This document shows positions 5,768-25,039 of a stretch of DNA of 64,000 nucleotides, in pieces. The first letter of the stretch is position 1. The number at the start of each line of letters is the position of its first letter. The notes under the pieces are model-generated. The model was not told where the DNA came from. It ran no database searches and saw only the letters and a program-made list of their open reading frames with translations. This DNA is from Ruegeria arenilitoris (GTDB lineage Bacteria; Pseudomonadota; Alphaproteobacteria; Rhodobacterales; Rhodobacteraceae). A program made the translations under genes and the position numbers. The stretch is from positions 248,001 to 312,000 of the forward strand of contig NZ_WPZQ01000004.1 of the NCBI RefSeq assembly GCF_013030265.1, read 5' to 3'.

Positions 5768-5796
5768 GTCGAAAAAACGACCGACTGTGTCGTTTT
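5768..5796 (-). promoter_or_regulatory. GTCGTTTTT-type site upstream of the dehydrogenase-like gene
   Basis: On the minus strand the segment 5781-5768 reads GTCGTTTTTTCGAC (a GTCG...CGAC palindrome with a T-run core). The flanking 5789-5796 GTCGTTTT makes a second inverted copy with the AAAACGAC at 5774-5781. It lies 51-79 bp before the start codon. The same core recurs at 22966-22976 and 25000-25039. Confidence 0.5.
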
Positions 5797-5813
5797 CAAC
5801 ATTCGGCGTTGAG

Positions 5814-7121
5814 TCAGAGGGGTCTGACCTTCAAACCCGTGATACGGTTTCCTTCGCGGGCAGTGACCTCAAAACGAAAGCCGTGGAACGAAAACACTTG
5901 TCCAACAATCGGGATCATCTGCGCTTCGTGAATAACGAGACCCGCAAGCGTATTTGCCTCTTCATCCGGCAGTGACCAGTCCAGCGCGCGGTTCGCGTCC
6001 CGGATAGTCATGGCACCTTCAACAAGAAACTGACCATCCTCGGTGCGGGTCACCGGGACCTCTTCGTCGATGTCGAATTCGTCAGCAATCTCACCCACGA
6101 TCTCTTCTAGAATGTCCTCTAGCGTGATCAAGCCGCGCAGCGAGCCGTACTCATCCACCACAAGGGCGAAGTGGCTGTGCATGCGCAGGAACTCTCTCAT
6201 CTGATCGTCGAGGGTCGTGGTTTCGGGCACAAAATAAGGATCATTCGCAACTTTCGAGATGTCGAACGAGCGCAGCTTCTCTGTATCGCCATCGGCACCA
6301 CCGACCTGAGCGTACATTGCGCGAAACAAATCCTTGGCATGGACCACTCCGACAATGTTCTCGGGCTCATCTCGAAAGACGGGCAGGCGCGTATGCGGGC
6401 TTTCCAGACATTGTTTCAGGATCGCTTCGGGTTCGGCATCGGCGTCGATCATTTCGATGTTTGAGCGGTGAAGCATGATTTCCTCGACCGCGCGGTCACC
6501 AAGGTCCAGTGCACCAAGGATACGGTCACGGTCCTCTTTTTCAACGACACCTTCAGAGTGGCCCAGTTGCAGGGCACCAGCGATTTCTTCACGCACCGCA
6601 AGGATGTTGCTGTCCGGGTCGATTTTCACCCCGAACAGGCGCAGTACGCCACGCACCAACAGTCGTACAGCCGCAACGACCGGGGAAAACACTGTTACGA
6701 CAACGCTTATGACCGGGGCAACAGCCGCAGCAGCCTTTTCCGCGTTCGTAATGGCATATGTCTTGGGCAGGACTTCAGCGAAGATCAGAACCAGCAGGGT
6801 CATCACCAAAGTCGCAAGCGCCACACCGCTTTCGCCGAACAAGCGCGTAAACAAAGCTGTCGCCAGCGACGCCGCCAGGATGTTGACGAGGTTGTTGCCC
6901 AGAAGGACAGACCCAATGAGGCGCTCGTTGTCGTCGGTGATGTCGAGCGCTTTTTGTGCCCCCCGCGATCCCTTGTCTGCCTGTGCCCGAAGCTTGCCGC
7001 GAGAAGACGCGGTAAGCGCAGTTTCTGAGCCTGAGAAGAAGCCCGACAGCACGAGCAATAGTAAGATAGAGCCGGTCGTAATCCAGAAGGCACCATCAAT
7101 CAGAGAAGGGTTGGGTTCCAT
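5814..7121 (-). CDS. CorC/HlyC family CNNM-domain membrane protein with CBS pair
   Basis: 435 aa. An N-terminal DUF21/CNNM membrane domain (about 10-190) begins with a hydrophobic helix and the GFFSGSETAL motif typical of the family. A CBS pair (about 210-335) and a small CorC/HlyC C-terminal domain follow. Members are implicated in Mg/Co ion transport or membrane integrity; the older name hemolysin is misleading. AAGGAA precedes the ATG. It lies downstream of xerD on the same strand with a 63-bp gap that contains the palindrome GGGGCCGCGGCCCC. Confidence 0.9.
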   Translation of the reverse strand: MEPNPSLIDGAFWITTGSILLLLVLSGFFSGSETALTASSRGKLRAQADKGSRGAQKALDITDDNERLIGSVLLGNNLVNILAASLATALFTRLFGESGVALATLVMTLLVLIFAEVLPKTYAITNAEKAAAAVAPVISVVVTVFSPVVAAVRLLVRGVLRLFGVKIDPDSNILAVREEIAGALQLGHSEGVVEKEDRDRILGALDLGDRAVEEIMLHRSNIEMIDADAEPEAILKQCLESPHTRLPVFRDEPENIVGVVHAKDLFRAMYAQVGGADGDTEKLRSFDISKVANDPYFVPETTTLDDQMREFLRMHSHFALVVDEYGSLRGLITLEDILEEIVGEIADEFDIDEEVPVTRTEDGQFLVEGAMTIRDANRALDWSLPDEEANTLAGLVIHEAQMIPIVGQVFSFHGFRFEVTAREGNRITGLKVRPL

Positions 7122-7184
7122 CGTTCCTTGAATATTAGTGTTGTTGCATCCGTTATGGGGCCGCGGCCCCGCCCAATCAAGGGG

Positions 7185-8147
7185 TTAGCCCTTGTTCTTC
7201 TCATCGTCCTTAGCCAACGGATGATGCTGAATGACCAGTTCGGACAGACGTTCATCCAGAACATGCGTATATATTTCGGTTGTTGCCACGTCGGCATGGC
7301 CAAGCAGCGTCTGGATCGAGCGCAGATCAGCGCCATTTGCCAACAGATGCGTCGCAAAAGCGTGGCGCAGCGTATGCGGGGTGACCTTTTCGGGTGAAAC
7401 ACCGCCGTGAACCGCCAGCTCTTTCACAAGAAGAAAGAACCTGTGCCGCGTGAGATGGCCTGATTTCCCGCGCGAAGGAAATAGAAAACGGGATCGCTGT
7501 CCACCTTTGGAGACAGTTGCTTCCTCAGCCTCATCCCGAACTTTTAGCCACGCCGCCAACGCATCGCGAGCGGGTGGGGACAGCGGCACCATCCGCTCTT
7601 TTCCACCTTTGCCCAAAACCAGCAACATCCGTGGGTCACCACGCGCAGATGAAACCGGCAGCGATACCAGTTCAGTGACGCGCATCCCGGTCGCGTAGAG
7701 GACTTCCATCAAGCACGTGTTTCGTATCTTGTCTGCCGTGCTTCGGCCTGTCTGTCGTGCTGCATCCAGCAAACGATCCACTTCAACAACATCCAGAGTT
7801 TTGGGTAGCCGCTTTTGGCGGCCTGGACCTTTTATCTGGATTGCGGGATTGGTGTCGCGCCAACCTTCTTCAAAGGCAAAGCGATAGAGTTGTTTGATGG
7901 CCGAAAGACGCCGCGCACGCGTAGACCGTGACAGCCCCTGCGCATCACAATCAATCAGATAACCTTCGATCTGATCGCGGTCAGCCTCAGCAAAGCCAGA
8001 TTTATGACGTTCCAGCCAAGATGAGAAATCCTTGAGGTCGCGACCATAGGCCAGCAGGGTATTGGTCGCAGCGCCAAGCTCTGCCGCCTGCGCCTCCAGA
8101 AACGTTGAAATCCAAAGGTCTTGCGTCGCTGGCGCAGTCATACTCAT
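7185..8147 (-). CDS. xerD: Tyrosine recombinase XerD
   Basis: 320 aa. With XerC it resolves chromosome dimers at dif. The SAM-like N-terminal core-binding domain (about 10-95) precedes a catalytic domain with the full set R156, K180, H258, R261, H284 and nucleophile Y293. The start codon overlaps the stop of the upstream gene (ATGA at 8144-8147), so the two are translationally coupled. An ATG two codons later is possible. XerC-type paralogy cannot be excluded, but the length and the PHTLRHAFATHLL block fit XerD. It is a housekeeping recombinase: no mobile element surrounds it. Confidence 0.92.
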   Translation of the reverse strand: MSMTAPATQDLWISTFLEAQAAELGAATNTLLAYGRDLKDFSSWLERHKSGFAEADRDQIEGYLIDCDAQGLSRSTRARRLSAIKQLYRFAFEEGWRDTNPAIQIKGPGRQKRLPKTLDVVEVDRLLDAARQTGRSTADKIRNTCLMEVLYATGMRVTELVSLPVSSARGDPRMLLVLGKGGKERMVPLSPPARDALAAWLKVRDEAEEATVSKGGQRSRFLFPSRGKSGHLTRHRFFLLVKELAVHGGVSPEKVTPHTLRHAFATHLLANGADLRSIQTLLGHADVATTEIYTHVLDERLSELVIQHHPLAKDDEKNKG

Positions 8148-9670
8148 GTACCCTGCAGGATCATAAGCTGAAGCGCTGCCCGTCTTGCTGTATCCTCGAG
8201 CCCAACGCGACGGAATGCTGCGATGGCAGCTGTCAGGTCTACCAAATTGCCACGCGCGCCATGCGCAAACAGGTGCATCGCCTCCAGAATGGCTTCGCCA
8301 AGCTGACCATTGTCCAGCATTGCATTGATATCTGATGGAACGGGTGCGGCCCAGACAAACCCTTCAGAAATGGCATCTGCGAGTGGGGATGGGGAGGGCG
8401 CACGTCCCGGATCACCTTGTGCTAGTGCGGCCAAATACTGATTTTCTTGTGAATTGTCCGGAACCTTTAGCGCTGCATTCTCATAAAGCTCGGATAGCAG
8501 CAGAATTCTCCAACGAAGATTTTCAGCTGAGGCTGTCGGTAGTTTAATGTTGACCAGACGCGCTGCAAACAGTTCGGCGAAAGGCACCTCAAGGCCGACG
8601 CTTCGCATTTGTTCCCAGACGACCGGAAGTGTTTTGGCGATGGCTTCGGAATTACGTGTTTCCAGCGCGGTTTCAAATCGCTGAACTGCAGCGACCCGAT
8701 CCCAAACTGCCCCCGACGCTGCCGGAGACCTTTCGGTGTAGAGGCCCAGCAATTGATTAGGGGTCAGTGCCCCAATGCGCGTCAAACGCTCTGCAGCTTC
8801 GATCTGGGCTTTCCAGCCCGCGACATCGCGCAGATCGGCGTTTGCGAAGGCCCGAGGCAACGGGGCGCTCGGCAACCGTTCACCAATCGCTTCGAAAAGG
8901 CGAAAGGTCAGGGGATCCGGGTTGTCGGGTTGGGGAAGATACGCTGCCCCTTCAAACATCTCAGGGCTGAGAAAACGATCCATAAGATCGAGTTGTTCCG
9001 GGGACATCACCTGCAATGCGTGCGCAGCTTCGAGCGTCAGTGCAGCCGAGGACCAGTCACCTCTACGAGCCTTGCAGAAAATCTGTGCCGAGTAGTCGCG
9101 CGACAGATGAGGTTGGGCGATCAATGCCGTACAGCTGCGATCCTCGTCACCTGTAAGCAGCGTCGCATCGAACCAGCGTTTGAAGCGTTCTGGCGTGTCG
9201 GTTGGTCCGGCCAATTGAACAAGCGATTGAACCGGATCCGAAGCCCCAAGTTGCATGAGCCGATCGAGCCTCGCCATCAGAAGCACGTCTTGCTTGCCCG
9301 TGCCGGTGGGCGCGCGCGCCTCAGAAAGCAGCAGCGTGAACAACAGCTTTTGCATAGCTGGATTGGCTTTGACCGGGACACGCTTGATCAACTCGGCGAG
9401 GCGTTCCGGATCACTGCCCTGCCATAGATCAACAGGAAGACCGGTTACCGATGAAGACACAAGGCCAAGCGGTGGTGAAAGAGCCTCGAGAGGTGTGACC
9501 TGAACATCCGGCTGCAACCCGGTCTGGGTCACCGGTGGTTCCAACAAGACGGTGCCCGGAAGGTTCTCGGGTGGGTTGTCCAGCCAGTCGATGACGGAAA
9601 GTGGTTCCTGCGTCTGGGCCTGAGCTGTTCCTGCCAGAACAAGCGCAAGCAGCGCGGCTCTAGTCAACAT
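8144..9670 (-). CDS. Secreted protein of unknown function upstream of xerD
   Basis: 508 aa with a clear signal peptide (residues 1-18, cleavage after AQA). The rest is helix-rich with many Leu/Ala/Glu residues and no catalytic motif that I recognise; a repeat-type all-alpha (TPR/SEL1-like) scaffold in the periplasm is plausible. One cysteine pair (about 180 and 195) could form a disulfide. Its start lies inside the end of the preceding 49-aa membrane-protein gene and its stop overlaps xerD, so three genes form one tight unit. Function not recognised; a role in cell-envelope or division biology is only suggested by xerD linkage. Confidence 0.8.
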   Translation of the reverse strand: MLTRAALLALVLAGTAQAQTQEPLSVIDWLDNPPENLPGTVLLEPPVTQTGLQPDVQVTPLEALSPPLGLVSSSVTGLPVDLWQGSDPERLAELIKRVPVKANPAMQKLLFTLLLSEARAPTGTGKQDVLLMARLDRLMQLGASDPVQSLVQLAGPTDTPERFKRWFDATLLTGDEDRSCTALIAQPHLSRDYSAQIFCKARRGDWSSAALTLEAAHALQVMSPEQLDLMDRFLSPEMFEGAAYLPQPDNPDPLTFRLFEAIGERLPSAPLPRAFANADLRDVAGWKAQIEAAERLTRIGALTPNQLLGLYTERSPAASGAVWDRVAAVQRFETALETRNSEAIAKTLPVVWEQMRSVGLEVPFAELFAARLVNIKLPTASAENLRWRILLLSELYENAALKVPDNSQENQYLAALAQGDPGRAPSPSPLADAISEGFVWAAPVPSDINAMLDNGQLGEAILEAMHLFAHGARGNLVDLTAAIAAFRRVGLEDTARRAALQLMILQGT

Positions 9671-9809
9671 TCAGGATAACCGGTTCTCGGATTTCACTTT
9701 GAGGCGCAGAGAAATCTGCGCCAAAGAATGGCCCGACATAAGCATACGCCACCAGCCCGATGAAGCCGAGGCAAATAAGGTATATCAGGAACTTGATCAG
9801 ACGGCCCAT
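9660..9809 (-). CDS. 49-aa single-pass membrane protein (small ORF)
   Basis: The complement strand from ATG 9809 to TAG 9660 encodes MGRLIKFLIYLICLGFIG..., with one strong membrane helix (about 5-25) after a basic N-terminus and a short acidic periplasmic tail ending in LNVD. It overlaps the following secreted-protein gene by 11 bp, a coupling that non-coding DNA would not be expected to show. I see no obvious strong ribosome site. It is easily missed because it is shorter than usual cut-offs and a longer open frame on the same strand, 9694-9906, covers most of it. Function unknown; it is probably the first gene of the xerD operon and lies divergent from aroK. Confidence 0.7.
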   Translation of the reverse strand: MGRLIKFLIYLICLGFIGLVAYAYVGPFFGADFSAPQSEIREPVILNVD

Positions 9810-9888
9810 GGTTTAACGCTGCCTCAATTTTCGCTTTTGCCCAAGTTATAACTGGCATTTTTCCCAAGATCACGTCATTCACGGTGAA

Positions 9889-10476
9889 ATGAGCGAAATT
9901 AAGCATAACACGTCAAATCCGGGCAACGCGCAGAGCTTTGATCTGCACAAAACCGTTGTTTTGGTTGGTATGATGGGCGCTGGTAAGACAGCGGTGGGGC
10001 GTGCTTTGGCTGCGCGGCTGTCGGTTCCGTTTCTGGACAGCGACGCCGAGATCGAATCGGCGGCCAACATGACGATCCCGGAGATATTTGAACGCGACGG
10101 CGAACCGTTTTTTCGCTCGAAAGAGAGTCAGGTCATCGGCAGGTTATTGGACGAAGAAAAAGGTATCCTGTCCACCGGTGGCGGCGCCTTTTTATCCGGC
10201 GAAAACCGCCAGATGATTTCAGACCGAGGTGTTTCCGTCTGGTTGCGTGCGGATCTGGAAGTGTTGTGGGGCCGGGTAAGGCATAAGGATACGCGGCCGC
10301 TGCTGCGTACCTCAGACCCCCATGCGACCTTGCGCGCGTTGTACGAGGCGCGTGTTCCGATTTATGCCCAGGCTGATCTTGTGGCGGACTCGGACGCTGA
10401 GACAGCGATTGAGGATATGGTGGATCGTGTATTGGCCGAACTGGCAACGCGTCCCGATGTTTTGGAACAGAAGTAA
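9889..10476 (+). CDS. aroK: Shikimate kinase
   Basis: 195 aa. It phosphorylates shikimate at O3 with ATP, the fifth step of the chorismate pathway. Walker A is GMMGAGKT (27-34), the Mg/shikimate aspartates are in LDSD (49-52) and the STGGGAF substrate loop lies at 95-101. The R-rich lid (about 135-142, KDTRPLL) is present. The N-terminus has about 20 residues of extension before the fold. The stop codon abuts the aroB start (TAAATG), so the two are translated as a unit, the usual aroK-aroB arrangement. Confidence 0.95.
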   Translation: MSEIKHNTSNPGNAQSFDLHKTVVLVGMMGAGKTAVGRALAARLSVPFLDSDAEIESAANMTIPEIFERDGEPFFRSKESQVIGRLLDEEKGILSTGGGAFLSGENRQMISDRGVSVWLRADLEVLWGRVRHKDTRPLLRTSDPHATLRALYEARVPIYAQADLVADSDAETAIEDMVDRVLAELATRPDVLEQK

Positions 10477-11589
10477 ATGCATCAGACTGTTTTCGTAGAC
10501 CTGGGTGATCGATCCTACAATGTTGAGATTGGTCCTGATCTGCTGGCTCAGGCGGGCGCACGGATCGCACCGCTGCTTCCGCGCCCAAGGGTTGCGGTTC
10601 TGACAGATGAAACGGTTGCGTCCATTCATCTTGAGGGGTTGCGGTCTGGTTTGGCTGCATCTGGCATCGAAATGACAGCGCTTGCTCTGCCCGCGGGGGA
10701 GGCAACCAAAAGCTGGCCGCATTTTGAACGCGCCGTCGAGTGGTTGTTGGCGGAAAAGATCGAACGTCGTGATGTAGTGGTGGCCTTTGGCGGCGGCGTC
10801 ATCGGTGATCTGGCGGGTTTCGCTGCAGCCGTTCTGCGGCGCGGAGTGAGGTTTGTCCAGATCCCGACCTCGTTGCTGGCGCAGGTGGACAGTTCAGTTG
10901 GCGGAAAGACAGGAATAAACGCACCTCAAGGCAAGAACCTGATTGGCGCTTTTCATCAACCTACACTGGTTCTGGCAGACACCTCTGTATTGGGTACGCT
11001 GACGGCGCGGGACTTTTTGGCAGGCTACGGCGAGGTCGTGAAATATGGTCTGCTGGGTGACGCATCCTTCTTTGAATGGTTGGAAGAGAATGGAGCGGCA
11101 TTGTCATCCGGAGATATGGCGGCGCGCGTCCAGGCCGTAACGCGTTCAGTACAGATGAAAGCGGATATCGTATCCCGTGATGAGACCGAGCAGGGTGATC
11201 GGGCTCTGCTGAATCTGGGACATACATTCTGTCATGCGCTCGAGGCTGCGACGGGTTATTCGGATCGACTGCTGCATGGAGAAGGGGTCGCGATTGGCTG
11301 CGCGCTGGCTTTTGAGCTCTCAGCCCGTTTGGGCCTGTGCTCGCAAGAAGATCCCAGCCGAGTGCGCGCGCATCTACGCGCGATGGGTATGAAAACCGAT
11401 CTGGCGGACATCCCGGGTGACCTACCTGGGGCGGAGGCTTTGGTTGAATTGATGGGTCAGGACAAAAAGGTCGTGGACGGTCAGTTGCGCTTTATTCTGG
11501 CGCGTGGAATTGGCAACGCTTTTGTAACCTCTGATGTCCCGCGCGAAGCCGTCTTGTCTGTGCTTGAGGATGCGTTGGCAACCTGCTGA
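10477..11589 (+). CDS. aroB: 3-dehydroquinate synthase
   Basis: 370 aa. It converts DAHP to 3-dehydroquinate using NAD and a divalent metal. The NAD-binding GGGVIGDLAGF, the substrate-binding SSVGGKTGIN and the metal-ligand blocks GHTFCHALE and LLHGEGVAIG are all present, and the length matches bacterial AroB. The ATG follows the aroK stop with no gap. It converges on the intramembrane-protease gene 12 bp downstream. Confidence 0.96.
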   Translation: MHQTVFVDLGDRSYNVEIGPDLLAQAGARIAPLLPRPRVAVLTDETVASIHLEGLRSGLAASGIEMTALALPAGEATKSWPHFERAVEWLLAEKIERRDVVVAFGGGVIGDLAGFAAAVLRRGVRFVQIPTSLLAQVDSSVGGKTGINAPQGKNLIGAFHQPTLVLADTSVLGTLTARDFLAGYGEVVKYGLLGDASFFEWLEENGAALSSGDMAARVQAVTRSVQMKADIVSRDETEQGDRALLNLGHTFCHALEAATGYSDRLLHGEGVAIGCALAFELSARLGLCSQEDPSRVRAHLRAMGMKTDLADIPGDLPGAEALVELMGQDKKVVDGQLRFILARGIGNAFVTSDVPREAVLSVLEDALATC

Positions 11590-11601
11590 TAAATAGAGGA
11601 A

Positions 11602-12672: not shown

Positions 12673-12690
12673 CTTTGTTCTCCGTTTTGC

Positions 12691-13194
12691 TTAGAACGGA
12701 ATCTCGTCGTCGTCGATCCCGCCTGATGCTGGTGCCGGTGAACCGGAAGGTGCACCGTACGGATCTCCATATCCGCCGCCGGCCTGACCACCGCCGTAGC
12801 CGCCTGCCTGGCCGCCACCGTAGCCTCCGCCGCCGCCTTCACCGCGGGCATCCAGCATTACGAGGGTAGAGCCAAACCCTTGCAAAACAACCTCAGTCGA
12901 ATAGCGATCCTGCCCCGATTGATCCTGCCACTTTCGGGTCTGCAGCTGCCCTTCAAGATAAACCTTGGAACCTTTGCGCAGATACTGTTCAGCTACGCGT
13001 ACGAGACCCTCATTGAAAATGGCGACCGAGTGCCATTCGGTACGTTCACGGCGTTCACCCGTGTTGCGGTCTTTCCATGTTTCCGAGGTGGCAATACGCA
13101 GGTTGCAGACCTTGCCGCCGTTCTGAAATGTCCTCACCTCGGGATCACGGCCGAGATTGCCGACCAGAATGACCTTGTTGACTGAACCTGCCAT
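12691..13194 (-). CDS. ssb: Single-stranded DNA-binding protein
   Basis: 167 aa. An OB fold (residues 1-110) begins [16 protein letters not shown] glycine-rich linker of Gly-Gly-Tyr-Gly-type repeats (about 118-150) and the acidic protein-interaction tip DDDEIPF follow. The start at 13194 is set by the conserved N-terminus and a GGGGAA site; the frame stays open upstream to 13539 but that part has no SSB homology. It protects single strands in replication and repair and recruits partners through the C-terminal tip. Confidence 0.96.
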
Positions 13195-13978: not shown

Positions 13979-14057
13979 GTTCGGCGCGCTGCACTGCAGA
14001 GAGCCTGTTTCTTGATTGGCCACCATTCGGCGCATTAACCTGATTTGGTAATCCCAA

Positions 14058-15038
14058 ATGACGGTGACTTTGCCGATGACACGCGACCGCCCGGAGATTC
14101 CACCGGATACTATGGCCAATTGGCAAAAGCTGGTTGATCTGGTCTCGCAGCTTGCTGATGTGCCAGCCAGCCTGATCATGAAAACGGACGCGCCTGATCA
14201 TGCGGTTCTGATTACTTCCGATCATCCGGAAAACCCCTACCCGGTGGGTATGAACTTTCGTTTGAACCCCAAGCTTTATTGTCAGGGTGTGCTGGAGCGC
14301 AATGGCGAGTTGGTGGTTGAAGATGCACAATGCGATCCGGTGTGGAGTGATAATGAGGATCTGGAGCATGGCATGTCGTTCTACATCGGGTTTCCCCTGA
14401 AATGGCCCGATGGCACGGTATTCGGAACCATCTGTGTTCTGGATCGACACCGCAACCGACGCGCTCTTTTGTTCCGAGAGGGGCTTGCCCAGTTCGCACG
14501 CATGGTCGAGTCAGATTTGGCTTTGATACAAGAGGTTTACTTGCGCAGAGCGCTCGAAGAGAAACTCAACGAGACGCTTATGCATCTGGAAAATCGTGTT
14601 CAGGCCAGGACGCGGGAGTTGCAGGAAACCAATACGGCTCTTCGCGTGTTGCTAACCAGTCTCGATGATGATCGGAAGGACCGGGATCAGGATATCGTAG
14701 AGCGTGTGCGCTCGATGGTGCTGCCTTATCTCGACAAACTGCGCGGGCAGTTGGTCGAAGGGGAGGCATCTCATGCTTATCTGGATCTGGCCGAGAGCAA
14801 TCTAAGGGACATCACCTCGATGATGTCAGACAAACTGTCCGATGCGTTCGCGATGATGACACCAACCGAGATCGAAATTGCGCAGCTGGTTATGTCTGGC
14901 AAAACAACGAAAGACATCGCGCGGGCGATGTCACGGGAAACTTCGACCATCGATTTTCACCGCAACAACATTCGGCGAAAATTGGGGCTGGAAGGGCGCG
15001 ATCAGAATCTTCGCAGCCATCTGCTCTCGATTTCGTGA
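14058..15038 (+). CDS. GAF-domain LuxR-type transcriptional regulator
   Basis: 326 aa. An N-terminal GAF-like sensor (about 20-160) contains GFPLKWPDGTVFGTIC, a typical GAF strand pattern. A coiled-coil linker (about 175-215, LENRVQARTRELQE) follows, and then a LuxR-type HTH (about 265-322) with LTPTEIEIAQLVMSGKTTKDIAR-like spacing. It probably binds a small ligand or flavin/haem and activates transcription. A later ATG at 14076 is an alternative start. It is not a quorum regulator: there is no autoinducer domain and no luxI nearby. Confidence 0.82.
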   Translation: MTVTLPMTRDRPEIPPDTMANWQKLVDLVSQLADVPASLIMKTDAPDHAVLITSDHPENPYPVGMNFRLNPKLYCQGVLERNGELVVEDAQCDPVWSDNEDLEHGMSFYIGFPLKWPDGTVFGTICVLDRHRNRRALLFREGLAQFARMVESDLALIQEVYLRRALEEKLNETLMHLENRVQARTRELQETNTALRVLLTSLDDDRKDRDQDIVERVRSMVLPYLDKLRGQLVEGEASHAYLDLAESNLRDITSMMSDKLSDAFAMMTPTEIEIAQLVMSGKTTKDIARAMSRETSTIDFHRNNIRRKLGLEGRDQNLRSHLLSIS

Positions 15039-15168
15039 ACACGGAATATGGGGTTTTCCCCCATATTTCCCCCTGATTTTTCTGGCCTGAGCCAAGCGAC
15101 CAACGATTGCTACCTTGAAATTGGTGGTACGGAACAAACCCGTGCCTGTCCAATACGGAGGTACAATA

Positions 15169-16155
15169 ATGGATCGAAACGATCTGAAGCCCACAATTCT
15201 TAACGGCAATCGCGACTCTCTGGCCCCGGGTCTTTCGCGACGCTCATTCTTTATGGCAGCTGGTGCAGCAGGTGTCGGGGCAGGGGCGTCTTTGCTTGGC
15301 AGCAAGCCCGCAGAAGCGCAATCACAAGCGTGGCTGCAACCCGGTAACAACAACCATGTGATCGATCTGCAGGGCTCAACCGGACAGGCAAGCAGTGGAA
15401 CGGTCGGGATCGACTATTACGGCCACTGCGCTATCAAGATCACGTCACCCAATGGTGCCACGGTTCTGTTTGATCCCTGGAGGGATGATCCGTCGGGGGC
15501 TTGGGGGCTGTGGTTCAGAAATGAGTTCCCTCAGATCCCTGTCGATATCACGATGTCCACTCACGCTCACTTTGATCACGATGCTATCGAGCGTCCCAGC
15601 TCGACGATGGTGCTGGATAGAATGGCAGGGAATTTTGAGTTCGCGGATCTGAAGATCACTGGATTTGCAGACAAACACGCCTGTGTCGCACCGGGCTGGT
15701 ATGACTGGACCAATGCGCTGGCCGAATTTGGAGTTGAGGCCTGCCCGCCGAACAACGTCGGTCATATGGATATGGTCGTTTACCTGGTGGAGACAGGTGG
15801 CATCCGAACCCTGATCTGGGGTGACAATCGACATAACCCGCCACAAGAATTCTGGGATGCGATTGGCCAAGTGGATGTTCTGACCCTGCCTGTAGATGGC
15901 TCGCAACACATTTTGAGCTATGAGCAAGGCAATGATATCGTTGCGAAACTGAAGCCGAAGATAATCATCCCCACACATTATCTGAATGACGTGACTTCTT
16001 ACACGCTGACGACTTTGCAATCCGCTGATGAATGGGTGAAGGGGCAGTCGAGTTACAAGATGCTTGATAGCGCCAGTCTGAGCCTGAATGCCGACGAGAT
16101 TTCAGGAATGTCTGAAGAATACATGTATTTCGGTAACAACGTCCTGACCGCTTAA
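15169..16155 (+). CDS. Tat-exported metallo-beta-lactamase-fold hydrolase
   Basis: 328 aa. A twin-arginine signal (SRRSFFMAAG, 23-32, then a hydrophobic stretch and an AEA cleavage site near 50) directs folded export. The MBL signature THAHFDHD (131-138) supplies zinc ligands; later histidines fall in NVGHMD and IPTHYL. It most resembles UlaG/YycJ-type broad MBL hydrolases; the substrate is unknown. TACGGAGG precedes the ATG. The frame extends 18 codons upstream to 15115 but that would bury the Tat signal. Confidence 0.85.
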   Translation: MDRNDLKPTILNGNRDSLAPGLSRRSFFMAAGAAGVGAGASLLGSKPAEAQSQAWLQPGNNNHVIDLQGSTGQASSGTVGIDYYGHCAIKITSPNGATVLFDPWRDDPSGAWGLWFRNEFPQIPVDITMSTHAHFDHDAIERPSSTMVLDRMAGNFEFADLKITGFADKHACVAPGWYDWTNALAEFGVEACPPNNVGHMDMVVYLVETGGIRTLIWGDNRHNPPQEFWDAIGQVDVLTLPVDGSQHILSYEQGNDIVAKLKPKIIIPTHYLNDVTSYTLTTLQSADEWVKGQSSYKMLDSASLSLNADEISGMSEEYMYFGNNVLTA

Positions 16156-16263: not shown

Positions 16264-16282
16264 TCTGATCTGACGAGGTAAA

Positions 16283-18370
16283 TTACTCCGCGGCGATCTT
16301 GATCACCGGTTCCATGCGGGCAAGGATGTCTTCTGCCAGATGGCATTTGACCTGATGGCCACCCGCAAGAGTTTGTACCGGGGGTACTTCCTTTTCACAC
16401 AAACCACCGGGCACTTCCGATTTCCAGCGGCAACGTGTTTGGAATGGGCATCCAGGAGGTGGGTTCATCGCCGACGGAATGTCGCCTTCCAAAACGATAT
16501 GCTCTTTTTCAACCGACGTATCCGCGATCGGCACAGCACTCAGCAGGGCTTCGGTATAGGGGTGATAGGGCGGTGCAAAGACCTGATCGGTTGTTCCCAA
16601 CTCAACCACATGGCCCAGATACATGACCATGACCCGGTCGCTGAGATAACGAACAATAGAAAGGTCGTGGCTGATGAACAGCAGCGTGGTTTTCTGTTCG
16701 CGCTGAATCTCCATCAACAGATCGGTTACTGCTGCCTGAACCGACACGTCAAGCGCCGACACAGGTTCATCCGCAACCACAATGCGGGCGTCCCCGGCAA
16801 ACGCACGGGCGATACCAACGCGTTGTTTCTGGCCACCTGAAAGTTGGCGCGGCATGCGTTCGGCAAAAGCCCTCGGCAATTTCACGAGGTCAAGAAGTTC
16901 AAGCATACGCTGCTTGCGCTCTGCCTCGGAATTACCGACGCCAAAGATCTCGAGTGCGCGAATGATCTGGCGACCAACTGTCATGGACGGGTTCAGCGTA
17001 TCGAACGGGTTCTGGAACACCATTTGAACTTCGCCAACTGTCTTGGCGTCGCGCTCTTCAATCGGCACGTCTTCGATGTTGCGGTTGTCCAACAGGATTT
17101 GGCCGTCGGTCGCTGTTTCAAGCCCCATCAGAACCTTGGCAAAGGTAGACTTACCGCAACCGGATTCGCCCACAATAGCCAGCGTTTCGGACTCGTGTGC
17201 TTCGAAACTCAGGGTTTCATTCGCTTTGACGACCTTCTTCTCACCGCCGCCAAACAGCGCGTTTGCCGCAACCTCATAGTACTTCTTGAGATTGTCCATC
17301 TTCAGGACGGTGCGACCAATTTCGCCTTTTTCCTTTTGCTCTCCAACGGTGATCGGCGCATTCCAGTCGATCTCCTGGAACTTCAGGCAGCGCGTGTGAT
17401 GCCGGTCATTCCCGGGAACAGCCTCCATGACGATATCCTGAGCGTCACAGCGGCCTTCCTCGAAATAGTCACAGCGTGGGCCAAAGTTACAACCCGGCGG
17501 CCGTTCGTGGGGCAGGGGAAAGTTACCCGGGATCGCCACCAGTGGGCGCGAGTTCTTGTCTGCTCCGGGCAGTGGAATCGAACGGAACAGCGCCTGTGTG
17601 TAAGGGTGCTGCATTTCATCGAATACATCATGGATCGAACCGCGCTCGACCGCTTCACCCGAATACATCACGCAAAGCCGGTCACAGGTTTCCAGAACCA
17701 GACCAAGGTTGTGACTGATGAACAGCATCGAGGTGCCGTATTTCTTACCCAGATCCTTGACCAGTTCCACCACAGCGGCTTCAACGGTCACGTCCAGCGC
17801 TGTTGTTGGTTCGTCCAATATCAGCAGCGCCGGTTTCGACATCAACGCCATCGCGATCACGATCCGCTGCTGTTGGCCGCCCGACAATTGGTGAGGGAAC
17901 GAGTTCAGCATCCGCTCGGGGTCAGGCAGGCGCACGTCGGTGACCACCTCCAGTGCTCGGGCGTAAGCCTCTTCCTTGCCGACGCCCTCATGGATCATCG
18001 GCACTTCCATCAGCTGCTTGCCGATTTTCATCGCCGGGTTCAGCGATGCCATAGGTTCCTGATAGATCATAGCGATCTCGTTGCCACGAATATCGCGCAG
18101 CTCTTCGGTCGTCATCTCACTCAGATCGCGGCCCTTGAACTTGATGCTTCCGCCGACAATACGACCGTTTTTGCCCAAATCCTGCATAACGCCCAGTGCC
18201 ACGGTGGATTTACCGCAACCGGATTCACCCACCAGCCCAACGGCCTCGCCGGGTTGTACGCTAACCGAGAAATCCATCACGGCCGGAATTTCCCGAAGGC
18301 GGGTGAAGAATGAGATGGACAGCTTGTCGATCTCAAGGATCGGGCCGTCATAGTCCGCCAGTTTGTTCAT
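16283..18370 (-). CDS. Fused DppD-DppF-type ABC transporter ATP-binding protein
   Basis: 695 aa with two complete ATPase modules in one chain. The first has GESGCGKST at 48-56 and an LSGGQQQR signature; the second has GESGCGKST near 405 and LSGGQKQR. Each ends in the oligopeptide-transporter C-terminal region with a Cys-rich PPGCNFGPRC or PPGCPFQTRC patch. Such fusions (GsiA-like) replace separate D and F subunits. It is the last gene of the operon binding protein - OppB - OppC - ATPase and supplies both nucleotide sites of the importer. Confidence 0.94.
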   Translation of the reverse strand: MNKLADYDGPILEIDKLSISFFTRLREIPAVMDFSVSVQPGEAVGLVGESGCGKSTVALGVMQDLGKNGRIVGGSIKFKGRDLSEMTTEELRDIRGNEIAMIYQEPMASLNPAMKIGKQLMEVPMIHEGVGKEEAYARALEVVTDVRLPDPERMLNSFPHQLSGGQQQRIVIAMALMSKPALLILDEPTTALDVTVEAAVVELVKDLGKKYGTSMLFISHNLGLVLETCDRLCVMYSGEAVERGSIHDVFDEMQHPYTQALFRSIPLPGADKNSRPLVAIPGNFPLPHERPPGCNFGPRCDYFEEGRCDAQDIVMEAVPGNDRHHTRCLKFQEIDWNAPITVGEQKEKGEIGRTVLKMDNLKKYYEVAANALFGGGEKKVVKANETLSFEAHESETLAIVGESGCGKSTFAKVLMGLETATDGQILLDNRNIEDVPIEERDAKTVGEVQMVFQNPFDTLNPSMTVGRQIIRALEIFGVGNSEAERKQRMLELLDLVKLPRAFAERMPRQLSGGQKQRVGIARAFAGDARIVVADEPVSALDVSVQAAVTDLLMEIQREQKTTLLFISHDLSIVRYLSDRVMVMYLGHVVELGTTDQVFAPPYHPYTEALLSAVPIADTSVEKEHIVLEGDIPSAMNPPPGCPFQTRCRWKSEVPGGLCEKEVPPVQTLAGGHQVKCHLAEDILARMEPVIKIAAE

Positions 18371-18461
18371 CTTTGCATCTCCTCGCGAGAGTCAGGGAAA
18401 TCCCATCATCTGGCTAAAATGTCATTGGAGGCCGGGAGCAAAGCCCCCGGCCTTGATCACA

Positions 18462-19925
18462 TCAGTCCTTCAAGCTTTCCTCACGCAGGCCATCCGCCAG
18501 CAGGTTCAGACCCAGAACCAGCGATAGCAATGCGAGGGCAGGAGGAAGGGCAGGGTGCAGGTAGATCGAGAGCAGTTTACGCCCTTCGTTGATCGTTGAA
18601 CCCCAGTCCGGGCTTTCCGGCGGAAGACCCAGCCCGAAGAAACCCAAGGTTCCCAGCAGGATGGTGGTGTAGCCGATGCGCAGGCAGAAATCGACGATCA
18701 GCGGACCACGTGCGTTTGGCAGGATTTCCCACAGCATGATGTACCATGGGCCTTCACCACGGGTTTGTGCCGCTGCCACGTAGTCGCGTGTTTTGATGTC
18801 CAGTGCGAGACCACGAACGATACGGAACACCGTAGGCGAGTTCACAAAGACCACCGAAACGAACACGACAAGGATACCACCGGGAATGTCGAACAGGTCG
18901 AGATAGATGGGCAGTCCCCAGATGCGATAGGTTTCCGTGTTGACGATATATCCACCGGTCGAGATCAGCGACAGATAGAGCCAGATAGCGATACCGAGAA
19001 CTCCGATCAGAAGCGGTGTTCGGAATTTGGGACGCGTGTAGTAGCGCGAGTTCAGCAAAACCCCGATGAACAGGATCGGGAAGATGAACAGCACTGCAGC
19101 CATATAGTTCGGCACGCCTGTTGCAACGATCTCTGGTGTCACCAGCAGGTAGAACAACAGGATGACCGGGAAGGCGAGGATCAGGTTGGCGAGGAACGAC
19201 AGGAAGGTATCCAGACGCCCGCCATAGTAACCTGCGGGCAGGCCCAGGGTGATACCCACCATAAATGCAAACAGGGTTGCAAGCGGGGCAATCTGCACAA
19301 CAATCCAAGCGCCCTTGACCATCCGGCTGAATACGTCACGAGCAAGGTTGTCGCCGCCCAAAAGGTACCAGGCGAACTCACCCTCTTCCGCATTTGGCAG
19401 GGGTGTGCCGGGCACTTTGTTTTTCATACCGGAGACCTGATCCAAGGGATCGTGGGTCACTATGAGGTCGAGCGCACCGAAAATTCCGGTGAAAACCCAG
19501 AACATCACCAACCCGAAGCCGATCATGCCAATCGGGCTGTCAAACAGCTTGCCATACAGGCCGAGACGCCGTTTGAAGGCGACGGACATGGCAAACAGGA
19601 TGATCAGCGACACCCAAACGGGCAAAAACTGTTGGGAAATGGCGCCCACGATACCTGCGCTTGTTCCCAGCAATACTCCCAGTACCAGATAAGCGACAGC
19701 GGCTGCGACAGTAGCCATGAAAGAATAGCGTAGCGCCATTTGTGCAAGCCCGCGGAAGCCACCTCCGGAACTCAGGGTTCCATCGGCATTGACTGATACG
19801 GGTGCTTCAGCCTGAAAGATACTTGCCAAAATCCATAGCACGATCGACAGCGCCAGAAGCACGAGCGCGATCATGAGGATTGGGTTGAGAAAGGCGATAG
19901 AGCCGGTCCAGCTAAGAGGTTCCAT
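18462..19925 (-). CDS. DppC/OppC-type ABC permease with enlarged membrane part
   Basis: 487 aa, about 190 more than a normal DppC. The BPD_transp core with the coupling-helix region (AAAQTRGEGPWYIMLWEILPNARGPLI) is near the C-terminus. Extra hydrophobic helices lie at the N-terminus (about 15-150) and between the core helices (about 270-345, including a GGYIVNTETYRIWG loop). Two small overlaps or gaps (13 bp to the upstream permease gene) place it firmly in the operon. The additional helices may shape a larger or specialised substrate path; this is inference. Confidence 0.88.
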   Translation of the reverse strand: MEPLSWTGSIAFLNPILMIALVLLALSIVLWILASIFQAEAPVSVNADGTLSSGGGFRGLAQMALRYSFMATVAAAVAYLVLGVLLGTSAGIVGAISQQFLPVWVSLIILFAMSVAFKRRLGLYGKLFDSPIGMIGFGLVMFWVFTGIFGALDLIVTHDPLDQVSGMKNKVPGTPLPNAEEGEFAWYLLGGDNLARDVFSRMVKGAWIVVQIAPLATLFAFMVGITLGLPAGYYGGRLDTFLSFLANLILAFPVILLFYLLVTPEIVATGVPNYMAAVLFIFPILFIGVLLNSRYYTRPKFRTPLLIGVLGIAIWLYLSLISTGGYIVNTETYRIWGLPIYLDLFDIPGGILVVFVSVVFVNSPTVFRIVRGLALDIKTRDYVAAAQTRGEGPWYIMLWEILPNARGPLIVDFCLRIGYTTILLGTLGFFGLGLPPESPDWGSTINEGRKLLSIYLHPALPPALALLSLVLGLNLLADGLREESLKD

Positions 19926-19938
19926 GATCTATCCTCCC

Positions 19939-20985
19939 TTACGAAATGCGAATGCGCGGGTTGAGGTAGACGTAGCCGATATCTGAAATCAGCTGCGTGA
20001 CCAGAACCACGAATACGGAGACAACCGAAATGGCTAGCAAGAGCTGGATATCGTTGTTCCCTGCAGCCTGAACCAGCGCCCAGCCAAAGCCCTTGTAGTT
20101 AAACAGGGTCTCGACGATCACCACGCCGTTCAGCAGCCATGGGAACTGCAGCATGATGACTGTGAAGGGCGCGATCAGCGCATTGCGTAGCGCGTGCTTC
20201 ATGACGATGTTCGAGAACGATACGCCCTTGAGGCGGGCGGTTCGGATGTACTGCGCGGTCATAACTTCGGTCATCGAAGCACGTGTCATCCGCGCGATAT
20301 ATCCCATCCCGTAAAGGGCAATGGTCAGAACCGGCAGGAAGAAGTTCTCGAAAGTCGGGTTCTCCATTGCCTGTGTCGCGGTTCCTTTGAACCACTTCAG
20401 GCCAACGGTGGACGAGGTGAAGATGGCGATGAAGATCACGCCCGATACATATTCCGGCGTCGCCGTCGTGATGATCGAGAATGTAGATAACGAGCGATCA
20501 AGAGCCGATCCTTCGCGCATGCCGGCCAGTACGCCAACCAACAACGCCGACGGTACCATCAGTACCAAAACCCAGAACATCAGGTATCCTGTGTTCCCCA
20601 ATCGCTTGGACACGATGGTTCCGACATCATCTTTAAAGACGGTCGAATATCCCCATTCACCTTGAAGAACGCCACAATAACGCGGGGTGTCTTCGGGTGT
20701 TGAGCCGGGGCGGACACAGGTGCCAACGAATTGACCGTCGTCAAGGGTATTGGTGAAACCCGGTACGACGCCAAGCCATTGACCGTATTTGAGCAGCATG
20801 GGCTCTCGGTACCCTCGGTTCGCAAGCCAGGTTTCCACCTGCTCATCGGACATACGTTGGTTGCCTTGCGTTTTGGCAAGCTTCTCGAGGTTCGGATAGA
20901 GATTGGTCAGAAAGAAGACCACAAAGGTCAGGCACAATGCTGTCAACAGCATCACCCCGAACCGTCTGAGGATAAAGAGTCCCAT
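19939..20985 (-). CDS. DppB/OppB-type ABC permease
   Basis: 348 aa with about six membrane helices. The N-terminal MGLFILRRFGVMLLTALCL is typical of DppB, and the EAA-like coupling loop (TARLKGVSFSNIVMKHALRNALI) lies near 240. The periplasmic loop after helix 1 is about 90 residues long and contains two cysteines (CVRPG...YCG) that could form a disulfide. It follows the binding-protein gene and precedes DppC by 13 bp. Confidence 0.92.
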   Translation of the reverse strand: MGLFILRRFGVMLLTALCLTFVVFFLTNLYPNLEKLAKTQGNQRMSDEQVETWLANRGYREPMLLKYGQWLGVVPGFTNTLDDGQFVGTCVRPGSTPEDTPRYCGVLQGEWGYSTVFKDDVGTIVSKRLGNTGYLMFWVLVLMVPSALLVGVLAGMREGSALDRSLSTFSIITTATPEYVSGVIFIAIFTSSTVGLKWFKGTATQAMENPTFENFFLPVLTIALYGMGYIARMTRASMTEVMTAQYIRTARLKGVSFSNIVMKHALRNALIAPFTVIMLQFPWLLNGVVIVETLFNYKGFGWALVQAAGNNDIQLLLAISVVSVFVVLVTQLISDIGYVYLNPRIRIS

Positions 20986-21078
20986 GATGGCCCCTGTTGT
21001 TCAGGTGTTTCCGCAGATCATTGGACCATTCGCTGGCCTCGGACTTCCGGAGGGTCGCCGGGCGTCTGCGGCTTGAAA

Positions 21079-21099
21079 GGGTGCCCGTTCAGGGCACCC
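21079..21099 (-). terminator. Intra-operon hairpin between binding protein and permease genes
   Basis: An 8-bp stem GGGTGCCC, loop GTTCA, GGGCACCC is followed by only TTTC on the minus strand. It is a weak terminator or a 3'-end stabiliser, a usual way to make more binding protein than permease. Confidence 0.6.
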
Positions 21100-21121
21100 C
21101 AGCTTGTATTGCCGATCGGGC

Positions 21122-22792
21122 TTAGGCGGCCCAACCCCACTTATACTGGTGGTGTTCGAACGAAATGTGCATGTCCGTTCCGACCAGACCGTCCTTCATG
21201 TGACGGTACAGAGCGCGCCAATACGGCTGAACGGTTACACCCTCTTCCTGGATCAACGCGGCACCACGGGCTGCTACCTCACGACGCTTGTCCGCGTCCG
21301 CGATGGCCAGAGCTTCGTCGAGAATTGCGTCGAACTCAGGGTTCGCCCAGCCAAACTCGTTCCAGGCTTCGCCCGATTTGTAAGCCAGTGCCCAAATTTG
21401 GACGCCCAGAGGACGGTGGTTCCAGTTGGTCGAGCTGTAGGGATATTTCGCCCAGTCGTTCCAGAAGGTGTTGCCCGGCAGAACCGTCCGCTTAACATTG
21501 ATACCCGCGTCGCGCAGCTGCGCAGCGACGGCATCGGTTGTATTGCGGCGCCAGTCGTCGTCGATCGAGAGCAGTTCATGCTCATAATCGGCCATGCCTG
21601 CTTCTTCCATCAGCTTTTTCGCGCCAGCGGCATCTACAGGCTGCTTGGGCAGTTCGGGATATTCCGGGTGAACCGGTCCCATGTGGTGGTTTTCAGCGGA
21701 CGAGCCGCGATTACCATAGCCCAGTTCCAGACAGACTTCGTTGTCGACTGCCATCTGAAGCGCTTTGCGAACGCGTTTGTCAGCATAAGGCTGTTTGCCA
21801 TCCACTTCGGCCAGCTGGTTCGGACGGATCACGAGGGTTGCCATGGTGATCACTTCGGATTTTTCGTATCCGAGACCATCCAACACGTCGATGAATTCAC
21901 CAACAGATTCATGCAGCATATCGACTTCGTCGGATTCCAACGCCGCCAGCCATGCAGACGGGTCGGTGCCGTAGTCTGTGTACTCGATCCGATCCAGAGC
22001 CGGACGACCGAATACCTCTTCACCCCACCAGGTGTGGTTTTCATTACGGGCCAGTGAGCATTTAACACCAACTTCCAGCTCTTCGATCACATAAGGACCA
22101 GTGCCTACGTTGTTAGTCAGGTCGTTCTCATTAAACGAACTGTGCACGATAGCCGCCGGATAGTCCGACATACCCGCAATCAGAGAGATGTCCGATTTTG
22201 GCAGATTGAGCTGAACGGTCTGCGGGTCGACAACCTGGATTGCGCCGTCGATGGCCTGACCGGTGCCTTCATCCACGAGCGTTGCAAAGCGGCCCGCCAT
22301 GGAGTTTGTTTCCGAGGATTTATCGCACCAACGGGCAATATTGCGCGCCACGTCATCGGCAGTGAAATCATCGCCATTGTTCCACTTCACACCCGGGCGA
22401 AGCTTTAGCGTGTACTGGGTTGCATCTTCGTTGATTTCCCAACCTTCCAGCAGCATGCCGCGGAATGTACCGTCCGAGTTGTACTCGACCAGGTATTCCA
22501 AGGTACCGCGGCTCTGGTTGCCCATTTCGGACCAGTCATAGGTGCGCGGATCCTTCAGGGCGCGAACGCTCATCTGAACGCGCAGAGTGCCGCCTTCTTT
22601 CTTGACGTCTTCGCCTGCTGCCATTGCAGGGGCGGGTAAACCGATCATTCCGTAAGCAGCTACCGCCGACACACCAAGGCCGGTCGCGCGCGTCAGGAAC
22701 TCACGGCGATTAAGTTTGCCGTCCCGATACTCTTGGGCATGCATCTCGGCTGCCCAATGAATCGGTGTTCCGGTCATTGTAGTGTTTTCCAT
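21122..22792 (-). CDS. Peptide/nickel-type ABC transporter substrate-binding protein (Tat signal)
   Basis: 556 aa, SBP family 5. A twin-arginine signal ([11 protein letters not shown], 28-38) with a hydrophobic region and AMAAG cleavage near 59 follows an unusual 27-residue cytosolic lead. The family core has [20 protein letters not shown] (an SBP_bac_5 signature). The substrate is not evident: family 5 members bind peptides, nickel, opines or glutathione. It is the first gene of the importer operon. A perfect TGTCGTTTTTG site lies about 175-185 bp upstream and is shared with the BCCT carrier promoter. Confidence 0.9.
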
Positions 22793-23138
22793 GAATGTCT
22801 CCCTGTGACACAGTTTTATCTTGAAGATCGTTCGAACTACTCTGATCGGATGCAGCCGATCGGTAATTCCTTGGGTTTTCTTTTTTGGATTCTAAACATC
22901 CCCATGCACGACATTCGGCACCAGAATTTACACAAGGTCAATGTTCGAAATCGTCATCCACGATACAAAAACGACATTGATGGCGAAAGTTGACTGGTAA
23001 TCAATAAAACCGCAGACGGTGTTTCTGTCCGGATTCGCGACATGTTTCTGATCGCAAGATACTGCATACCACGGCATTCAATTTGTCGTGTGTTTGCGGT
23101 AACTTCCCGGTCGCAGGTAATGTCGGTGGATTAAAGTA
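22793..23138. other. Promoter region of the ABC importer operon
   Basis: 346 bp without a gene, between the miaA stop and the binding-protein start. It must contain the operon promoter. The only notable element is the GTCGTTTTT-type site at 22966-22976. Confidence 0.6.
22966..22976 (-). promoter_or_regulatory. TGTCGTTTTTG site upstream of the ABC importer
   Basis: The minus strand reads TGTCGTTTTTG, identical over 11 bp to both copies in front of the BCCT gene and in the same orientation relative to the gene. It lies about 174 bp before the start codon. Confidence 0.5.
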
Positions 23139-23999
23139 TCAAGCTGAGGCGACGATCCAATTCCAGGATTTCATGCGAGCCCGGAACCATGTCCTTTGGC
23201 GCTTGGCGAACTGCCGCGTCGCGATTGTCGCCTTTTCTCTGGCGTGATCGAGTGAAACTTGCCCATCCAGATAGGCTATCAACTCTGGCACTCCGATTGC
23301 CTTAAACGAAGGAAGCGCGGGATCATACAGCCCGCGCATGGCCTCGACTTCTTCCAGCGCACCGGTTTGCAGCATCAGGTCAAACCGGCGGTTGATCCGA
23401 TCCAGCAGCCAGTCTTTGTCTGTGTCAAAAACAATCGGAACAGCGTCGCTCAGCTGTAGTATCGGCGGTGGGGTGTCCATCTGCCAGTCGCGCAGAGATT
23501 TTCCAGTCGCTTTCTGAACCTCCCATGCGCGCTGTACCCGCGCCCGATTTTGCACATCGATCCCATCAAGCGTCTTTCGGTCCACGCCTTGCAACAGGAC
23601 GTCCAATGACAAACTGTCAGCCTCTGATCGAACTTCTGCAGGCGTTGCGGGTATATCTGCCATGCCTTCGGTAAGGGCAGTAAAGTATAGCCCCGTACCA
23701 CCTACAATAATGGGGCGCTGACCTGATTGAAGGAGCGGGGTAACCTCTCGCAACCAGTGGCCGGTGGAGTAGGTTTGGTCATAGGTGATGTGACCGTATA
23801 GCTTATGCGGAGCCTGTGCTTCTTCCTCAAGCGAGGGTCGGGCAGAGATTACTCGCCAGCAATCATAGACCTGGCTTGCATCCGCATTAACGATCACGCC
23901 GCCATGCCGCTCGGCAATCTGCAAGGCCAGCGCCGATTTTCCCGATGCGGTAGGGCCGGCAATGAGCACCGGTTTGCCATCAGGAATAGATGGCAACAT
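23139..23999 (-). CDS. miaA: tRNA dimethylallyltransferase
   Basis: 286 aa from the chosen ATG. It transfers dimethylallyl from DMAPP to A37 of tRNAs that read UNN codons. The P-loop GPTASGKS lies at about 15-22, with the DASQVY motif that replaces the family's more usual DSxQVY, GGTGLY in the middle and the tRNA-binding C-terminal helical insert. An alternative ATG at 24032 has a better ribosome site (AAGG) but would put the P-loop unusually far in. It is divergent from pyrH. Confidence 0.92.
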
Positions 24000-24129
24000 G
24001 TCACAAATACGGGTCGCAGAATCTTCGTGCATCTGTGGTTGCCTTGTTCCGTACCATTCGCATTGAACCTGCGTGGCTTTTGCTTCATTTTGCGCCGGAA
24101 AATAAACCCGTGCCAGCCCGGAGCGCAAC

Positions 24130-24882
24130 ATGAGCCTGTCATCCACCACTGAAACCACCGACGCCCCAAAAACAAAGTACAATCGCGTTATGCTGAAAAT
24201 TTCGGGCGAGGCGCTGATGGGGGATCAGGGATTCGGGCTTCATCCTCCAACGGTTCAACGCATCGCGCAGGAAGTGAAGTCGGTTCATGATCTGGGTGTT
24301 GAAATCTGCATGGTGATCGGCGGTGGCAATATCTTCCGCGGTCTTTCAGGTTCGGCCCAGGGGATGGAACGGACAACGGCCGACTACATGGGAATGCTTG
24401 CCACTGTTATGAACGCACTGGCCATGCAGTCCGCGCTTGAGGGCGTCGGCGTTTTCACCCGGGTGATCTCAGCGATCCGTATGGACGAAGTTTGCGAGCC
24501 CTACATCCGTCGTCGCGCCGTCCGTCACCTTGAGAAGAAGCGGGTTTGTATTTTTGCCGCCGGGACCGGCAATCCCTACTTTACCACAGATACTGCAGCC
24601 ACCCTGCGCGCCAATGAAATGGCTTGCGAGGCGATCTTTATGGGCAAAAACGGTGTGGATGGCATCTATGACAAAGATCCAAAGGCCCATGCGGACGCTG
24701 TGAGATATGACACCGTGACCTATGATGATGTGTTGGCCAAGCGTTTGCGGGTAATGGATGCATCAGCTATCGCATTGGCACGGGACAACAATTTGCCCTT
24801 GATCGTCTTTGGTCTGGATGAGCCCGGCGGCTTCCGTGGCATTCTGGCGGGTGAGGGCACCTATACCAAAGTCCAGGGCTAA
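24130..24882 (+). CDS. pyrH: Uridylate kinase (UMP kinase)
   Basis: 250 aa. It makes UDP from UMP, hexameric and GTP-regulated in bacteria. An amino-acid-kinase fold with [10 protein letters not shown] (22-31), [10 protein letters not shown] and the UMP-binding [12 protein letters not shown] block. A 15-residue polar N-terminal lead precedes the fold. No frr follows: the next gene is a BCCT carrier 239 bp away, so the usual pyrH-frr-uppS string is broken here. Confidence 0.95.
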
Positions 24883-24999
24883 GACCGGTATTCCGGCTGC
24901 TTCGCCATTGGTGATTCTTTGCATCCGAAACCGGACACCCACCACCCACACTGCGTAAAAACTGTTAGCGAAAACGGCATTTCACGTCGATAAAGTGCG

Positions 25000-25039
25000 T
25001 GTCGTTTTTGCACGAAAAGCGAACTGGATGTCGTTTTTG
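25000..25039 (+). promoter_or_regulatory. Two TGTCGTTTTTG direct repeats upstream of the BCCT gene
   Basis: Identical 11-mers lie at 25000-25010 and 25029-25039, 29 bp apart and 83-122 bp before the start codon. A degenerate inverted copy (GCGAAAACGGCA) lies at 24968-24979. The motif is shared with 22966-22976 and 5768-5781. Confidence 0.55.

Follow-up and report, generated by a model that had tools for sequence, protein, structure and literature searches.

Between marine algae and bacteria, glycine betaine serves as a major currency. A corrinoid-dependent route by which roseobacters demethylate it was published in 2025 (PNAS, PMC12478193), and Ruegeria pomeroyi on glycine betaine has more of two pfam06253 proteins, MtgC, MtgD, MetF2, RamA and the BCCT carrier OpuD, with the proteins of cobalamin synthesis and of the serine cycle also raised; the parts of that paper covered here name no regulator or operator, and one is proposed below (PMC12478193). 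In Pseudomonas aeruginosa, the sites of CdhR consist of 6-bp GGTCGC half-sites with a 15-bp spacer and are very similar to those of GbdR, SouR and ArgR (PMC5806209). Within the genus Ruegeria itself, TmaR of R. pomeroyi is an AraC-type activator of methylated-amine catabolism that targets promoters of the trimethylamine (TMA) pathway (PMC13390433). Here, a stretch of 64,000 nucleotides from Ruegeria arenilitoris (the window; contig NZ_WPZQ01000004.1, positions 248,001 to 312,000) is described, in which an ATP-binding cassette (ABC) importer, a BCCT-family carrier and an MttB-superfamily methyltransferase (mttB) share a conserved tandem operator that also precedes cobT and serC elsewhere in the genome. 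The class of tandem operator is already known and its gene content here is unusual; no earlier description of this motif was found in a literature search that left most subscription journals outside.

The element common to the three upstream regions is TGTCGYTTTT followed by a GNCK half-site 20 or 21 bp on (consensus TGTCGYTTTT-N-GNCKNTTT), and it apparently sits just upstream of the -35 region. Half-sites 20-21 bp apart are separated by about two helical turns and therefore lie on the same face of the DNA. Sets of orthologs were picked by protein and not by motif from 61 genomes (the source genome, 36 of the same genus and 24 of the same class), with at most 30 loci per gene for the ABC, BCCT and dehydrogenase footprints, and the promoters were scored with a profile trained without the tested gene's own class. 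A score of at least 14 is reached by 28/30 ABC promoters, 69/79 mttB promoters (one of 80 loci had too little upstream sequence and was left out) and 9/15 BCCT promoters, and by 1/30 promoters of a dehydrogenase-like gene of the window, 0/14 of BCCT paralogs and 1/10 of the mttB paralogs of the source genome, while mononucleotide shuffles score as high in at most 1%. Moreover, the majority fraction in the motif-anchored core exceeds that of the upstream flank at ABC (0.98 against 0.43), mttB (0.92 against 0.37), BCCT (0.86 against 0.43) and the dehydrogenase palindrome discussed below (1.00 against 0.40), the conservation of core columns being due in part to the choice of anchor. A leave-one-class-out scan covered 727,830 bases of the source genome (G000, 4.62 Mb in 25 contigs, to which the C-numbers refer), namely contig C18 and selected stretches, some of which overlap; when the places used in training are set aside, the promoter left out of the profile ranked first for serC, second for ABC, mttB and cobT, and sixth for BCCT. 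It is nearly certain that the tandem elements are operators, and an operator shared by the ABC importer, the BCCT carrier and mttB is well supported.

At the ABC importer, 28/30 loci carry ATGTCGYTTTTgT-n-ATGACGAtTtCGaACaTTGACcT-n-CTggtGCcGAAT within a block in which TTGACC and CTGGTGCCGAAT would constitute the -35 and -10 elements of the promoter, and a profile of this block finds the ABC promoter as its sole place in the source genome at an expect value of 10 or less, with 150 of 2110 candidates scored. The two loci without the site (L119 in genome G006 and L120 in G021) encode proteins 74% and 65% identical, and a further ABC match in each genome (64% and 63%) does carry it, 200 and 184 bp upstream of the match. 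The 80 mttB loci, nearly all from Rhodobacteraceae, have ATGTCGCTTTT...GcCG in common with a period of 20. For the BCCT carrier, 14/15 loci including the source genome's own fit a flexible pattern of GTCG-n-TTT and, 21 bp further along, a second half-site resembling GTCT (the anchor of L038 was placed by hand), and two copies of GTCGNTTT occur in 5/15, again including the own locus, at varying distances. Spread of the site by paralogy was considered and rejected, the ABC paralogs on C3, C14 and C9 being without a TGTCGYTTT tandem (by regular expression and by eye) and the BCCT paralogs, as above, without a scoring site.

The original prediction had departed from a shorter motif, the 9-mer GTCGTTTTT, as the mark of a regulon of three genes: the ABC importer, the BCCT carrier and the dehydrogenase-like gene. 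Its four copies in the window, at 5773-5781 (-), 22967-22975 (-), 25001-25009 (+) and 25030-25038 (+), are all confirmed with no fifth, all point toward the downstream gene, and three are identical over 11 bp (TGTCGTTTTTG at 22966-22976 (-), 25000-25010 (+) and 25029-25039 (+)); the repeat noticed before mttB at 48375-48399 is likewise present. Dinucleotide shuffles of the window hold a mean of 0.64 copies of the 9-mer and four or more in 1/100 shuffles, and TGTCGTTTTTG with up to two mismatches has 26 matches in the window against 20.1 expected. Genome-wide there are 30 exact copies of the 9-mer and 6 of the 11-mer, of which the window holds 4 and 3; the reversed 9-mer has 72 copies, so that the bare 9-mer is not enriched. 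It is scattered, with 22 of the 30 copies inside mechanically called open reading frames of more than 150 amino acids, and two of these 22 (L013 and L023) are the serC and cobT sites; it is the longer tandem element that stands out. The four copies of the window are also unequal: those at 22966 and 25029 are conserved and form, together with the repeat at 48375, the promoter-distal half-sites of the operators, the copy at 25000 has no conserved position, and that at 5773 enters one arm of a palindrome. Footprinting of orthologous promoters bears out three sites, those of ABC, BCCT and mttB, so that mttB, earlier listed only as weaker, belongs as well. Two other readings of the motif were rejected: no terminator hairpin is seen by eye before the window copies, and Rfam, at its gathering thresholds, has nothing at the window sites that would speak for an RNA leader. 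A copy elsewhere (L022:1501-1509) does follow a hairpin and, judged by eye, resembles the T-tail of an intrinsic terminator.

The dehydrogenase-like gene has to be taken out of the regulon. In the 30 loci fetched of 36 matches at 88% identity or more, the CGAC and GTCG of its palindrome are invariant (30/30), mostly in the form CGACA-N5-TGTCG, the T-run is not conserved, and a single operator for all three genes was rejected given the one locus that fits the tandem profile. The gene probably has a separate palindromic operator, which would answer to another regulator and has the TGTCG half-site in common with the tandem sites. The window's site is one base off the exact CGACA-N5-TGTCG, which has 4 matches in the 727,830 bases against 0.8 expected, one of them intergenic (C18:63027). 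This palindrome (L173:4024-4046, or G000:C18:63023-63045) lies in the gap before a second mttB (C18:63094), and that the dehydrogenase and the second mttB have it in common is suggestive only. That gap also contains, on the opposite strand and directed away from the second mttB, a tandem-profile match outside the training set that scores 21.3 bits (C18:63031). A regular-expression search for a B12-binding protein on contig C18 gave no match.

Beyond the window, a motif-only scan of 37 same-genus genomes with TGTCGYTTTTN{11,12}GNCK found 179 matches against 130 for the reversed control, and 150 of them, from 31 genomes, were listed. Among the matches listed, 109/150 correspond by sequence to one of five promoters, with ABC in 31/31 genomes, cobT in 30, mttB in 29, serC in 14 and BCCT in 5. 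Where loci were fetched, the downstream gene is cobT in 20/20 and serC in 13/13, and seven other sites precede neither; serC was identified at 671 bits against a cut-off of 477, and cobT and the divergent cobS were named by model match. The half-site period is 21 at BCCT, cobT and serC and 20 at ABC and mttB, and TGTCGY, comparable to a GGTCGC/TGTCGC half-site, is present in the ABC, mttB, cobT and serC sites. Across 21 genomes, the codons of cobS that fall within the half-sites are free of synonymous variation, whereas it does occur in later codons. The comparison of core with upstream flank is less telling at cobT (0.96 against 0.82) and serC (1.00 against 0.71). From the serC operator it is 65 bp downstream to the start of the Rfam serC leader RF00517. 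Overall, the original prediction is partly supported: it had caught part of a real regulon, whose operator recurs beyond the window at cobT and serC.

Table 1. Features of the window and their coordinates
Feature	Position	Strand	Remark
ABC tandem operator, TGTCGTTTTT + TGACGA, period 20 bp	22952..22976	-	28/30 loci
Conserved promoter block: operator, then TTGACC (-35-like), CTGGTGCCGAAT (-10 region)	22911..22978	-	28 invariant columns of 70
Solute-binding protein, peptide/nickel-class ABC importer	21122..22792	-	PF00496, 210 bits
Two permeases and fused double ATPase, same importer	16283..20985	-	Opp/Dpp/Nik-like matches
BCCT tandem operator, TGTCGTTTTT + AGTCT, period 21 bp	25029..25054	+	flexible pattern in 14/15 loci
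Extra TGTCGTTTTTG copy	25000..25010	+	position not conserved
BCCT-family carrier, glycine-betaine type by nearest family	25122..26708	+	TIGR00842, 471 bits (cut-off 407.55)
mttB tandem operator, TGTCGCTTTT + GNCG, period 20 bp	48375..48399	+	69/79 loci
MttB-superfamily methyltransferase (Pfam family of MtgB), no in-frame stop	48473..50017	+	PF06253, 784 bits (over cut-off)
Palindrome CGAC-N7-GTCG upstream of dehydrogenase	5778..5792		5773-5781 copy runs into left arm
Flavin adenine dinucleotide (FAD)-dependent dimethylglycine/sarcosine-dehydrogenase-like protein, GcvT domains	3300..5717	-	DAO, FAO_M, GCV_T, GCV_T_C

The design of the operator recalls the sites of the GATase1-like AraC activators CdhR, GbdR, SouR and ArgR, where TCG-containing direct repeats with a period of about 21 bp likewise precede the promoters of genes that catabolize quaternary amines (PMC5806209); it differs from them in the T-run of the TGTCGYTTTT half-site, in a looser second half-site (GNCKNTTT), in the period of 20 at two promoters and in targets that include mttB, cobT and serC. 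CdhR has been called a class I activator (PMC5806209), whereas the Ruegeria sites seem to abut the -35 element. Direct repeats at this distance beside a -35-like element suggest an activator of the AraC type, and the regulator of the tandem sites is likely to be one. The source genome has 24 AraC helix-turn-helix (HTH_18) matches above the family cut-off, and ten AraC proteins have a GATase-like part by phmmer or the GbdR model, the tenth (L144) matching the latter weakly. The top GbdR-model score of the ten, 371 bits, belongs to an orphan GbdR-like regulator (G000:C1:33216-34286), followed by 314, 218 and less. This protein matches AraC helix-turn-helix and ThiJ/PfpI structures, and every one of the 36 same-genus relatives searched contains a match to it with an identity of 83% or more; an internal stop is marked in 7/36 of these matches, and in L292 and L296, both read, it falls before the likely start codon. 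The conserved sites would then answer to one common regulator, and the orphan protein appears to be the best candidate for binding them.

Other binders have to be weighed against this candidate. That a different AraC-type protein occupies the tandem sites, either the one encoded at C21:34328 beside a quaternary-amine-like transporter and an mttB or a homolog of TmaR, is rather unlikely, even though the genome offers the many AraC proteins counted above and the C21:34328 protein scores 314 bits with the GbdR model. Its cluster looks like one for hydroxyproline betaine, which makes a local role likelier. TmaR of R. pomeroyi does belong to the AraC-type activators, but its DNA-binding domain (TmaR-DBD) bound TMA-pathway promoters and not betB, and the covered part of that paper gives no TmaR motif (PMC13390433). 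It is improbable that the regulator comes from another family altogether, such as LysR, or is the GAF-LuxR protein whose gene (14058-15038) lies close to where the ABC operon ends. An OxyR-like LysR gene does lie about 1.7 kb downstream of mttB, and the dehydrogenase palindrome suggests that other factors read TGTCG; LysR and LuxR factors usually have inverted sites, however, and direct repeats 20-21 bp apart fit AraC better. Chance, or a mere core-promoter preference with no common regulator, is very improbable and already largely refuted: the bare 9-mer is scattered and rarer than its control, and in the source genome the tandem pattern does not outnumber its control, yet orthologs conserve the site amid diverged flanks, the BCCT paralogs are without it, and held-out classes are recovered.

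The reading in which a GATase1-like AraC activator acts through the tandem operators of ABC, BCCT, mttB, cobT and serC, with the dehydrogenase separate, also has points against it. The looser pattern TGTCGYTTTN{12,13}GNCK occurs 8 times in the source genome against 12 for the reversed control, and the period at ABC and mttB is 20 and not 21. At BCCT, 6/15 loci are below a score of 14, with TGTCG in 9/14 anchored sites and TGTCGY in 7/14. Because the pattern itself served to choose the cobT and serC sets, their core is conserved by construction and only recurrence and the outside bases count; the strict serC site is in 14/31 genomes among the matches listed, and the cobT operator reaches into the 5' end of cobS, which is divergent. 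The 41 other matches listed form at most pairs of like sequences, and with no larger group beyond the five promoters, mtgC, mtgD-metF2, ramA and sdaA, which are betaine-induced in R. pomeroyi, may not be direct members of the regulon or may have sites that are weaker; they seem to be without a strict site, the genes themselves not having been located. Neither 'serC' nor 'ABC transporter' appears in the main text of PMC12478193, and its serine cycle is not serC. The peptide/nickel class of the ABC importer is not a known betaine class. As for the regulator, the orphan protein lies below the cut-off of the GbdR equivalog model NF052371 (371 against 480 bits, the next being 314), and by this model it and the C21:34328 protein are relatives of GbdR and not members; the latter also has similar matches in most of the genus, and no tandem site scoring at least 14 precedes the orphan regulator's own gene in 10 loci.

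The window genes behind the tandem operators probably function in taking up and degrading glycine betaine and related compounds. The importer is of the peptide/nickel class (PF00496), and an osmolyte is therefore only its putative substrate; the BCCT carrier scores 528 bits with the betaine_BCCT model, under the cut-off of 650. The window's mttB is a candidate for the glycine betaine demethylase MtgB, one of 11 PF06253 matches in the source genome. The mttB and BCCT genes are of families induced by betaine in R. pomeroyi (pfam06253 MtgB and OpuD), and cobT fits the raised cobalamin synthesis (PMC12478193). A cluster at L269:6226-19267 contains an mttB, an enolase-superfamily-like protein, dehydrogenases, a ProVWX-like transporter and a GbdR-like regulator. 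On these presumed identities the cluster looks like a pathway for hydroxyproline betaine, which would imply an MttB for it. At L153:347-7068, a paralog of the ABC solute-binding protein lies between an AraC gene and what we take to be a choline-sulfatase-like gene, with a presumed phosphodiesterase-like gene nearby, which hints that this protein family handles choline-related compounds. Within the window, the Rfam small RNA Cis52 of Ruegeria (20184-20362 (+), 134 bits) is antisense to the ABC permease gene 19939-20985 (-), and the ABC operon may thus also have antisense control. The GAF-LuxR regulator gene is followed by a metallo-hydrolase gene (Lactamase_B_3), the pair (14058-16155 (+)) being convergent with the ABC operon.

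It is reasonably probable that a GATase1-like AraC activator related to Pseudomonas GbdR, CdhR and ArgR operates the five promoters. It would bind both half-sites and recruit RNA polymerase when a methylated osmolyte or a demethylation product is present, the inducing signal being, at a guess, glycine betaine or dimethylglycine. Uptake by the ABC importer and the BCCT carrier would be switched on together with demethylation by MttB/MtgB, with cobalamin lower-ligand assembly (cobT), the methyl carrier being corrinoid-bound, and with serine synthesis (serC). More tentative, and somewhat doubtful as a whole, is the proposal that a conserved, hitherto undescribed GbdR-like roseobacter regulator couples betaine uptake and corrinoid-dependent demethylation to cobT and serC through one tandem operator, a link from betaine to B12. 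The operator points to five promoters, to the precise bases for mutation and to a single candidate protein, and thereby gives a testable lead to the regulator. If true, the link between betaine use, B12 assembly and serine synthesis would explain how the supply of cofactor and of one-carbon units tracks demand.

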